A stretch of DNA of 25,056 nucleotides. It comes from a virus. Shown piece by piece: positions 10,357 to 15,413 of this stretch. The notes under the pieces were generated by a model. The model ran no database searches. It saw nothing but the letters and a program-made list of their open reading frames with translations, and was not told where the DNA came from. Location of the stretch: positions 1-25,056 of the IMG/VR virus record IMGVR_UViG_3300042402_002503; one strand, written 5' to 3'. Position 1 is the stretch's first letter. Each line of letters begins with the position of its first letter. Made by a program: the position numbers and the translations under genes.

Positions 10357-10366
10357 TTATAAATAT
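10357..10366 (-). promoter_or_regulatory. Possible -7 element for the leftward gene
   Basis: On the minus strand this reads ATATTTATAA, the same string as at 11452-11461 and 14869-14878 on the plus strand upstream of other genes. It lies 11 nt before the start codon of the zinc-finger gene. No TTG at the expected distance was found, so support is weak. Confidence 0.25.
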
Positions 10367-10446
10367 GAGGGGTTAATTCTTTATAGTTTTTGTTAGTCAC
10401 AGGAGTTTTATTTTTTTTTATCCATATAGGTTAACCCCTCTTTTTT
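10367..10446 (+). terminator. Large-loop inverted repeat with T run between divergent genes
   Basis: GAGGGGTTAA (10367-10376) and TTAACCCCTC (10431-10440) are a perfect 10-nt inverted repeat separated by 54 nt and followed by six T. Read rightward it has the form of a terminator with an unusually long loop, and could stop transcription coming from the head genes through the leftward gene. It could also be a small structured RNA or a paired operator for the divergent genes. Confidence 0.55.
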
Positions 10447-10457
10447 ACTAAAAATAC

Positions 10458-10991
10458 ATGGCTCACAGAAATTATCCATACTACTATAGAAAGGGTGAAA
10501 TAATGACTACTAAGGAGTTGTTTAGACCCACATATGAACATCTTACCACCTTAGGTAATATAATTCAATACAACCCCTTATTTAATGGTTTTAGTGTCAT
10601 TGGTTGTGGTTCATTAACTCAAGGGGTTAATTCACCACCAGATATGGACATACTAATTTATGGTGCGTTGTATGATAGCAATTTAATTTATAAGATGTTG
10701 TATGAAATATCTAGAATTGGTATTGTTGAATTAAATGTTAATACAGATGTTTTATTTACCACAGACATATCTTTCTTAACCACAGACATTTCACTTCAAC
10801 AGAGCAAGTCCTATGATGTGTACACTCATTATAACTTTGAGATGGAGATACGGGACAATGTCATTACAAAGTTTAGAAACTTTAATTCTAATGAAAGAGT
10901 TGGTTTATTAACCAAACACAAAACTACTCAACCATCCATTAAGGCAATTGAGAGAAATTACAAACCAAACCAACATATTTTTTTAAGGTAG
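10458..10991 (+). CDS. Nucleotidyltransferase-fold protein (pol beta superfamily)
   Basis: A 177-aa protein. Residues 49-67 read GCGSLTQGVNSPPDMDILI. The G-S at 51-52, followed by a D-x-D pair at 62 and 64, is the signature of the pol beta nucleotidyltransferase superfamily. A third acidic residue is present in a strand at D97 (NTDVLF), as required for metal binding. The protein therefore probably transfers a nucleotide to a protein, RNA or small molecule; the substrate cannot be told. A second in-frame ATG (10503, codon 16) follows an AAAGGG-like sequence and may be the real start, since the first lies only 12 nt beyond the T run of the preceding inverted repeat. No antitoxin-like partner is visible next to it. 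Confidence 0.6.
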   Translation: MAHRNYPYYYRKGEIMTTKELFRPTYEHLTTLGNIIQYNPLFNGFSVIGCGSLTQGVNSPPDMDILIYGALYDSNLIYKMLYEISRIGIVELNVNTDVLFTTDISFLTTDISLQQSKSYDVYTHYNFEMEIRDNVITKFRNFNSNERVGLLTKHKTTQPSIKAIERNYKPNQHIFLR

Positions 10992-11317
10992 ACTTTACAT
11001 CACCATTTAGACTGTTAAATTGTGTCTTAGATGGTATCTAAGTGTATAGTGACAACACCTTTCACATTTACCTAAGACGGAGAAACTCCAAAGATTATAA
11101 GATAGACTATGGTGAAGCAATGTCTCTAAATGCTTCTAAACTTTAACTCACAAGGTTATTGGTTCAGGTAAAATGTTAATTAAAAGTTGTTGGTTCTTTT
11201 TGTGGGGGGCTTTTTGTTTACAACACCTTTTTTTATAGGGAGAGAAAACCCCTGCGGGTTTATAGAACAACTAATAAAAAAAATATAATTTAGTGTTTAT
11301 TATCAGGTAAAAACTAA

Positions 11318-11325
11318 TATATTTA
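11318..11325 (+). promoter_or_regulatory. Possible -7 box TATATTTA for a short RNA
   Basis: TATATTTA with a TTT (not TTG) 19 nt upstream. It would start transcription near 11330, just at the hairpin and terminator that follow. The match to the Bacteroidota promoter pattern is partial. Confidence 0.3.
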
Positions 11326-11327
11326 TA

Positions 11328-11412
11328 GTATTGTATTAAAATTATTTACACTTAGATACAATACCGTCTTAGGTGAAAAAACCCGCACTGTCACTAGCGG
11401 GTTTTTTCTTTT
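11328..11412 (+). ncRNA. Candidate small RNA with loop complementary to the next gene's leader
   Basis: GTATTGTAT (11328-11336) and ATACAATAC (11356-11364) form a perfect 9-bp stem. Its 19-nt loop (11337-11355) is followed 11 nt later by a strong terminator, giving an RNA of about 80 nt if transcription begins near 11330. The loop bases TAAAATTATTTACACTTA (11337-11354) are the exact reverse complement of 11459-11476, which lies immediately before the start codon at 11479. The RNA could therefore pair with the leader of the nuclease-like gene and block its translation. The pairing and the terminator are seen directly; the transcript and its function are inferred. The inverted repeats could instead be protein-binding sites. 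Confidence 0.45.
11376..11412 (+). terminator. Rho-independent terminator AAAAAACCCGC / GCGGGTTTTTT
   Basis: A perfect 11-bp stem (11376-11386 with 11397-11407) with a 10-nt loop, running into TTTTTTCTTTTT. It would work in the rightward direction, and the A6 on the left side could allow leftward function as well. It separates the non-coding island from the small-gene operon starting at 11479. Confidence 0.9.
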
Positions 11413-11450
11413 TATACCCTACCTACACTTTCTTTAATAAAAAAAAAACT

Positions 11451-11458
11451 TATATTTA
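11451..11458 (+). promoter_or_regulatory. Candidate promoter of the small-gene operon
   Basis: TATATTTA, 20 nt upstream of the start codon at 11479, with TTT 19 nt further upstream (11429-11431). It fits the Bacteroidota -7 pattern at 7 of 8 positions. A start site just downstream would place the right arm of the inverted repeat at the very 5' end of the mRNA. Confidence 0.4.
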
Positions 11459-11478
11459 TAAGTGTAAATAATTTTATT

Positions 11479-12093
11479 ATGAAGTATCAAGGAAACAAAA
11501 AAGACGGGGACATTGTACCTCAAAACAAAAGGGTAATAAGTCTTTTAGACCAAATGTTAGAACATTACATTAGAAACCCTAAGTACAAGCAAGGGGTAAT
11601 AGATGAACAATATGTTGATGATAATGTATTCTCAGCACCTGAAGACCAAACTGAAGTGAAACATCTAACTGAAATTAAAACAGAAAGTTTGGATAGAGTA
11701 TTGGAATATGGTAATTTTTATGTTGAAACACATGCTAGAATAAATGGTTATCAAAACTTTTATCCATCTGGTATTTCAACTACTAAGAGTAAATGGTGGG
11801 TTGTATGTATAAAAGATAAAAAAGATATGTTATTACCATACTTTTTTTGTATTTCAACTGACTATATTAAAGAGTTGATGTCAAATAGTGAAACAAATGG
11901 TATCAAGTTAAACCAACCCACACTCAATTTAGATACTGGTGATGATAACTTAGGAGCGTTGGTAAAGATAACTAGTTTAATGCCTGAGTTATTTGACGCT
12001 ATACCAACTAGTGAATTACAAGATATCATAGACGCCCGTAATATTGCCGCTAAAAACAGATTAAAACAACTCAGGTGTAATGAAAAAAAGTAA
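11479..12093 (+). CDS. PD-(D/E)XK nuclease-like protein
   Basis: A 204-aa protein. Residues 64-67 (T-E-I-K) supply an E-x-K pair, preceded by acidic residues at 55-59 that could provide the first Asp. Residues 78-83 (GNFYVE) and 96-107 (PSGISTTKSKWW) follow, giving the order D, ExK, GNxxxE, SGxxTTxxxxW. That is the arrangement of small phage PD-(D/E)XK nucleases related to Holliday-junction resolvases, where the SGI-TT-ADYW segment follows the catalytic strands. It would cut branched or foreign DNA; the substrate is unknown. The C-terminal part (residues 150-200) is helical and basic. It leads a run of small overlapping genes and has the unusual leader described separately. Confidence 0.5.
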   Translation: MKYQGNKKDGDIVPQNKRVISLLDQMLEHYIRNPKYKQGVIDEQYVDDNVFSAPEDQTEVKHLTEIKTESLDRVLEYGNFYVETHARINGYQNFYPSGISTTKSKWWVVCIKDKKDMLLPYFFCISTDYIKELMSNSETNGIKLNQPTLNLDTGDDNLGALVKITSLMPELFDAIPTSELQDIIDARNIAAKNRLKQLRCNEKK

Positions 12094-14747: not shown

Positions 14748-14783
14748 GGTTCACTTTTTTATTGCTCACATTTTAAGTGAACC
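14748..14783 (+). other. Hairpin GGTTCACTT / AAGTGAACC upstream of a terminator
   Basis: A perfect 9-nt inverted repeat (14748-14756 with 14775-14783) with an 18-nt loop. It has no T run after it, and lies 5 nt before a true terminator hairpin. It may be an RNA stability element or a dyad operator. Confidence 0.6.
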
Positions 14784-14788
14784 ACAAT

Positions 14789-14823
14789 AACCCTCATCAG
14801 TAATGGTGGGGGTTTATTTTTTT
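14789..14823 (+). terminator. Rho-independent terminator
   Basis: AACCCTCATC (14789-14798), loop AGTAAT, GGTGGGGGTT (14805-14814), then TATTTTTTT. The stem has ten pairs, two of them G-U. It separates the small-gene region from the sigma-like gene. Confidence 0.8.
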
Positions 14824-14867
14824 AGGAACAAAAAGGGACACACTACTTACTTTTTATGTTTTTTTGG

Positions 14868-14875
14868 TATATTTA
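14868..14875 (+). promoter_or_regulatory. Possible -7 box upstream of the sigma-like gene
   Basis: TATATTTA followed by TAA, identical over 11 nt to the sequence at 11451-11461. It is 34 nt before the GTG start at 14910 and just behind a terminator. No TTG is found at the expected distance, so it may be an activator-dependent or phage-specific promoter. Confidence 0.35.
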
Positions 14876-14909: not shown

Positions 14910-15413
14910 GTGGATACAAGACAATGGTTAACAAAAAATTACACAGAATTACTTAACATAACCAAAAAAGTGGTTAAAAATGAAAGTGAAGTTGATGATG
15001 TGTTCCAATGCGTAGTAGAACAGGTATTACTCAAAGACAAAAAGTTGGATACTATAGATGACAAACAAAAGTTATATTATTTTATTAGGGTGGTTAAGAA
15101 CAATTATTACAGTAAAACTAGTTCATACTATTACCAATACAAAAAGAGTTCAACACATAACCTACAATTTGATGAAACCATATATGAGAACATACCTGTT
15201 GAACCCTATAAAGAAAACCTACCGACAATGGAGTGGGTTAATGAACAACTTAAAGATTTGGACTGGTTCAGTAGGGACTTATTTTTATTATGGTTAGATA
15301 TGGGTAGTCTAACAGCGGTAAGTAAACAAACAACCATACCCCTTAACTCAGTGGGTAGATACATAAAAGACATAAAAATTATACTAAAAGAAAGATGGCA
15401 AAAATTAAATTAA
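14910..15413 (+). CDS. Sigma-factor-like protein (ECF type)
   Basis: A 167-aa protein whose only plausible start is GTG at 14910, because an in-frame stop lies just upstream and no early in-frame ATG is present. Residues 29-33 (DDVFQ) within SEVDDVFQCVVEQVLLKD resemble sigma region 2, where ECF sigmas have a DxxQ-type motif after a short helix; a Tyr-rich basic stretch follows (about 63-80). Residues about 122-157 form a helix-turn-helix-like region 4 (TAVSKQTTIPLNSVGRYIKD). This would let the phage redirect host RNA polymerase, perhaps to late genes. Similarity is at pattern level, and other helix-turn-helix regulators are possible. It lies between a terminator with a candidate promoter and the small-terminase region. 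Confidence 0.55.
   Translation: MDTRQWLTKNYTELLNITKKVVKNESEVDDVFQCVVEQVLLKDKKLDTIDDKQKLYYFIRVVKNNYYSKTSSYYYQYKKSSTHNLQFDETIYENIPVEPYKENLPTMEWVNEQLKDLDWFSRDLFLLWLDMGSLTAVSKQTTIPLNSVGRYIKDIKIILKERWQKLN

Follow-up and report, generated by a model that had tools for sequence, protein, structure and literature searches.

A candidate RNA switch at the translation start of p204 in an uncultivated phage with a probable Bacteroidota host

The DNA analysed here, which we refer to as the window, is a stretch of 25,056 nt with 34.6% G+C that corresponds to positions 1 to 25,056 of the virus record IMGVR_UViG_3300042402_002503. Its genes encode a terminase, a portal protein, head proteins, a DNA methylase, a sigma-like factor and an endonuclease VII/HNH-like protein, and the late genes are shared with relatives in IMG/VR, the nearer ones of which show roughly 54-80% identity. 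Judging from the form of the promoters alone, the host probably belongs to the Bacteroidota. The part of the window that concerns us is a gap of 487 nt in front of a gene for a protein of 204 aa, here termed p204 (11479-12093, plus strand), together with the hairpin, the intrinsic terminator and the two predicted promoters that this gap holds in the same orientation.

The hairpin (11328-11364) has a perfect stem of 9 bp, formed by GTATTGTAT (11328-11336) and ATACAATAC (11356-11364), that closes a 19-nt loop with the sequence TAAAATTATTTACACTTAG (11337-11355). All but the last base of this loop (11337-11354) are the reverse complement, 18 out of 18, of positions 11459-11476 in the p204 leader, such that the right arm of the inverted repeat stops 2 nt short of the ATG at 11479; when extended, the match between the arms spans 21 nt at 95%. 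Between the arms lies an intrinsic terminator (11375-11413) consisting of a 12-bp stem, GAAAAAACCCGC (11375-11386) and GCGGGTTTTTTC (11397-11408), a loop of 10 nt and a T5 run. Stem, loop and 18-base complement had been described in an initial annotation of this DNA, the coordinates of which proved exact to the base, and the strong terminator that it placed between the arms is borne out by the 12-bp stem and the T5 run. The terminator was absent from a consensus terminator scan, the rule of which admits loops of up to 8 nt as against the 10 found here.

Within 300 nt, the 25,056-nt window contains no inverted repeat of 14 nt or longer other than this 18-nt one, of which there is no third copy in the window. 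When the complete window was shuffled 200 times with dinucleotides preserved, the longest inverted repeat within 300 nt was 16 nt, and 16 nt was again the longest, with 18 nt never reached, when the region of 510 nt around the repeat was shuffled (0/2000). The frequency with which a perfect 9-bp stem closes a random 18-mer, allowing 0-2 nt of slack, is 1.5e-4 in shuffled sequence. Because the shuffles go no further than 16 nt and the closing stem is this rare, both the inverted repeat and the stem are beyond chance, and their coincidence is still less likely to be a product of chance. Folding predictions give the hairpin 11328-11364 on its own an energy of -7.7 kcal/mol (z -4.3), and an RNA consisting of hairpin and terminator an energy of -25.4 kcal/mol (z = -5.1).

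The gene that begins next to the right arm, p204, has distant homologues with 27-33% identity, with which its start codon is consistent, and its product matches phrog_13596 (E 8e-8). There is a weak resemblance to nucleases of the PD-(D/E)XK type: the top Foldseek matches of a structure model (pLDDT 49) are the endonucleases PvuII, I-Ssp6803I and NhoI (E 0.01-0.2), which hints at a PD-(D/E)XK fold. A model of such low confidence and E values in this range lend weak support to the term nuclease-like, which the gene had been given beforehand. Protein searches of phage records returned no match for p204 or for the DUF6712 protein, and a genome-contig search returned no relative of the DUF6712 family.

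A pattern scan finds two predicted promoters of Bacteroidota type in the gap, both on the plus strand. The upstream one, P1 (11296-11325), reads TTT (11296-11298)-N19-TATATTTA (11318-11325), and P2 (11429-11458), the predicted promoter of p204, reads TTT (11429-11431)-N19-TATATTTA (11451-11458). Transcription start site (TSS) measurements in Flavobacterium psychrophilum locate the -7 box between -12 and -5 (PMC9723704). By this spacing, the predicted +1 of P1 is at ~11330 (+/-2), no more than 2 nt from the 5′ edge of the hairpin, and that of P2 is at ~11463, within the complementary stretch and 16 nt 5′ of the ATG. The two occurrences of TTT-N19-TATATTTATA in the 487-nt gap compare with an average of 0.03 in shuffles, and the ten-letter sequence TATATTTATA appeared twice in the gap in 0/2000 shuffles. 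The -7 box of P2 is at the same time the centre of a palindrome, ACTTATATTTATAAGT (11448-11463). Bacteroidota promoters have been described as having the form TTTG/TANNTTTG (PMC6847099), and the promoters visible in the relatives of this phage, TTG-N18-20-TATATTT(A/G), are found 5′ of genes and on the sense strand only. The -33 boxes of P1 and P2 are TTT and not TTG, which counts against reading the locus as an antisense switch, as does the fact that P1 and P2 are of the same promoter class.

A third TATATTTATA is located at 14868, 5′ of the gene for the sigma-like factor (14910-15413). This factor has a weak match to region 2 in Pfam (E 0.016, below the cut-off) and is kept in the relatives at 47-57% identity; it might be the factor that reads the TATATTTATA promoters.

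We infer from these features that RNAs transcribed from P1 and P2 pair with each other in the cell and that the locus is an RNA switch holding down the translation of p204, through a free antisense RNA and possibly also in cis, a reading to which we assign a probability of about 50%. P1 would give rise to an RNA of ~83 nt, in which a 5′ hairpin with a single-stranded 19-nt loop is followed by the terminator, and P2 to a p204 mRNA with a leader of ~16 nt, nearly the whole of which is covered by the target (11459-11476, plus strand). The loop would pair with this leader from the leader's 5′ end almost to the start codon, the short mRNA winding into the loop by its free 5′ end, and upon opening of the stem the predicted pairing would extend over the AUG. 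Start regions in the Bacteroidota are tuned by structure and carry no Shine-Dalgarno sequences, and initiation needs an open start region (PMC6847099). In a host that does without Shine-Dalgarno pairing and requires the A/U-rich start region to be open, a duplex of this kind would be expected to block initiation. RNA that runs past the terminator contains both strands, and its leader would be folded shut in cis. On these assumptions, p204 would be translated solely from P2 transcripts, and solely when these outnumber the small RNA.

The trans mode ranks first in our view, since closing stem, terminator and the promoter match next to the hairpin together describe a stand-alone RNA. The initial annotation had offered two readings, an upstream antisense RNA and a switch that depends on read-through; the sequence fits both, and the proposal is strengthened by the promoter matches of P1 and P2 and by the predicted pairing past the AUG. 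It is conceivable, if doubtful, that the left arm is used twice, namely as a trans antisense on P2 transcripts and as a cis lock upon read-through of the terminator, and the upstream strand could have become usable in both ways through selection or by accident. If this dual use were real, the timing of the production of the nuclease-like protein would depend jointly on read-through of the terminator, on the choice of promoter and on the dose of RNA.

Pairing at the level of RNA is favoured by a weaker predicted helix past the exact repeat, in which 11331-11335 and 11478-11482 form a duplex over the AUG that includes two G-U pairs. Such G-U pairs would be invisible as DNA matches. When the predicted P1 RNA was cofolded with 33 start regions, that of p204 included, p204 came out by far the best with a net energy of -13.8 kcal/mol, ahead of a runner-up at -6.9; for all start regions other than p204, the mean was -3.3 kcal/mol (sd 1.9). 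The energy of the loop at p204 was reached by 0/400 shuffled loops, and a scan of the plus strand with the loop only found no site better than p204. A longer query that included the stem arms found several imperfect sites on the whole plus strand that equal or surpass p204, with energies up to -26.4. Energy alone is therefore insufficient to pick out p204; it is the perfect loop helix and its position that do so. For 11 other hairpin elements in this phage and its relatives, no complement of more than 12 nt to the element's own contig was found, own stems excepted.

Both arms are also present in a second assembly, IMGVR_UViG_3300042484_001293, which has 3 differences to the window in 12,523 nt (99.98% identical), none of them in the element. 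In about a dozen related contigs, both arms are absent, i.e., there is no such inverted repeat at this place. The occurrence in one near-identical assembly only, together with the lack of the repeat in the relatives, indicates that the element is recent or fast-changing. In the relatives, the p204 homologue (~30% identity) lies within an operon, behind another gene and without the repeat, which speaks against an antisense switch.

The surroundings of the element hold further repeats. CTTAGRT is found five times within 350 nt (11026-11466), compared with 13 occurrences in the whole window, and all three genome copies of TAAGTGTA lie within 11026-11466; these are possible protein-binding sites or repeat scraps. 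Two more complements of the small RNA are located at 11034-11080 on the plus strand, one of 13 nt (11034-11046, with 11347-11359) and one of 11 nt (11070-11080, with 11364-11374). A second target at this place was considered and rejected, since the order in which the two complements occur does not permit a continuous duplex. The reading frame at 10980-11145 is protein-like, has no upstream ATG and contains one internal TAA (VDFTSPFRLLNCVLDGI, stop, VYSDNTFHIYLRRRNSKDYKIDYGEAMSLNASKL, stop). It is probably a gene remnant, and no relative of it was found in the related loci examined.

A switch that acts in cis only is a serious rival to the trans mode, because ~4 of the 18 complementary bases lie 5′ of the predicted +1 of P2. 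These bases would be present on long transcripts only and superfluous for a pure antisense RNA, against which they therefore argue. Under this explanation, transcripts coming in from upstream would pair 11337-11354 with 11459-11476 in the same molecule and thereby conceal the start of p204, P2 would sit inside the loop of this fold and yield a short translatable mRNA, and the terminated RNA would be without function. In silico, the closed leader of the read-through RNA is predicted to be favoured by 8-14 kcal/mol, depending on the length of the RNA, and there is precedent in phage T4, where long transcripts of gene e, soc, 49 and I-TevI sequester the start and a promoter inside the structure produces a translatable mRNA (PMC3014915). 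The locus resembles gene e and I-TevI in this predicted preference of the long transcript for the closed fold; the P2 match between the arms may be the counterpart of their inner promoter, and I-TevI is, furthermore, a phage nuclease, as p204 might be. The difference lies in the strong terminator that parts the two strands here, such that few transcripts should carry both and most of the upstream strand would be present as free small RNA with a hairpin of its own. Moreover, a cis switch has no need for a separate 9-bp stem that loops out one of the arms, nor for a promoter match at the edge of this stem, and we regard it as unlikely that the locus works in cis only. To our minds a little less probable still is a neutral or decaying relic, in which the leader was duplicated in inverted orientation in a region with a gene remnant and the product is functionless at present. 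The restriction to a single lineage would agree with this, as would the repeat scraps nearby (the 13- and 11-nt complements, CTTAGRT and TAAGTGTA) and the frame with its internal stop, but a copying accident accounts neither for the perfect closing stem nor for the promoter match and the terminator that surround it.

The least probable of these explanations, in our estimate, is that the element functions at the level of DNA, be it as an invertible segment, as paired protein-binding sites or as a small transposon-like element. The 18-bp inverted repeats flank 104 bp that hold P2, which points at p204, and this is reminiscent of the invertible promoters of Bacteroides, in which inverted repeats flank a segment with an outward promoter and which are common there. 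The -7 box of P2 is palindromic, and TAAGTGTA, the core of three of these sites, is found nowhere else in the genome, which leaves room for DNA binding. However, both assemblies have the segment in a single orientation, a Pfam scan of 20 window proteins detected no recombinase-like family, and there is no paired copy in bacterial genomes, nor a third copy in the window. An element of this kind would also leave unexplained the closing stem, the terminator and the position of the hairpin at the +1 of P1. A mobile element with these terminal repeats was rejected as a candidate, there being no copy in bacterial genomes and no nucleotide match in phage records.

Returning to the RNA switch, the initial annotation did not recognise it as a described type of control, which is too strong a statement in view of two close precedents, the leader hairpins of T4 gene e and I-TevI and the C4 RNA of phages P1 and P7. 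C4 RNA is encoded immediately 5′ of its target and on the same strand, and here, too, the small RNA arm and p204 are on one strand (plus). It is ~77 nt long, and its loops bind the target mRNA at the ribosome-binding site, which is thereby partly occluded (PMC5320573). The likeness is that of a phage RNA loop occluding the start region of its target, in our case as a prediction from the 18/18 match. C4 RNA has three stem-loops and is cut by RNase P from a longer transcript, whereas the RNA predicted here has a single target hairpin, ends in a terminator and would be transcribed from its own promoter; the promoter match at the 5′ edge of the hairpin argues against a need for RNase P processing. 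Rfam gave no match at the gathering threshold; in 11280-11560, 23 matches were obtained when values up to E 10 were admitted, none of them to C4, and the sub-threshold matches reflect terminators. Membership in the C4 family is ruled out by the absent Rfam match and by the fold, which is one large-loop hairpin plus terminator without the a′ and b′ target loops.

Lambda OOP, P22 sar, IS10 RNA-OUT and plasmid FinP are antisense RNAs encoded in cis, each read from the opposite strand to its target. The RNA predicted here would have in common with them that a short RNA controls a gene of a mobile element, but it lies beside p204 and on the same strand, which sets it apart from this type. In the case of FinP, the loops of its stem-loops give specificity, and the ribosome-binding site of traJ is blocked (PMC5415839). 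A literature search of limited reach found no described case of such a switch in Bacteroidota phages, nor any RNA regulation in this phage group. To our knowledge, nearly all examples of antisense control in phages come from a handful of enterobacterial models. The switch, as read from the sequence, would be close to known phage devices, yet new in detail. If it exists, occluding a short A/U-rich leader suffices to control translation in a host without Shine-Dalgarno pairing, and the repressor of 83 nt and its target of 16 nt would form a compact pair in an uncultivated phage probably infecting Bacteroidota.

Other structured elements are found in these phages. A G-rich/C-rich hairpin with a loop of 50-70 nt, mostly ending in a T run, is present at 10366-10446 of the window and in the relatives L015 (6697-6769), L016 (11362-11431), L021, L034, L043 (8325-8412) and L022 (11410-11508). 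In most relatives covering that place, it is flanked by the divergent HNH gene on one side and by the next rightward gene on the other, usually with a TATATT box 5′ of it. The letters of its stem vary with the pairing kept, as judged by eye; in an automatic alignment, double changes are seen in only 2 of 8 pairs. This hairpin may be a conserved small RNA.

The sigma-like gene is preceded by a large-loop hairpin (14748-14783), a terminator (~14788-14826) and the TATATTTAT promoter (14868), and the same order of hairpin, terminator and TATATTTAT promoter is seen 5′ of this gene in most of these phages (L005, L008, L009, L019 and L028), with differing loops. We considered and rejected the possibility that the loop at 11337 is a by-product of this architecture: the large-loop hairpins of the sigma gene match at most 11 nt in their own contigs, unlike the loop at 11337. 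In L022 (11377-11536) and in L020, finally, a terminator and, 5′ of it, a structured non-coding RNA of ~150 nt directly precede the promoter of the first gene in the operon with the p204 homologue, and in L022 a TTG-N19-TATATTTATA promoter match is located 5′ of this structured RNA.
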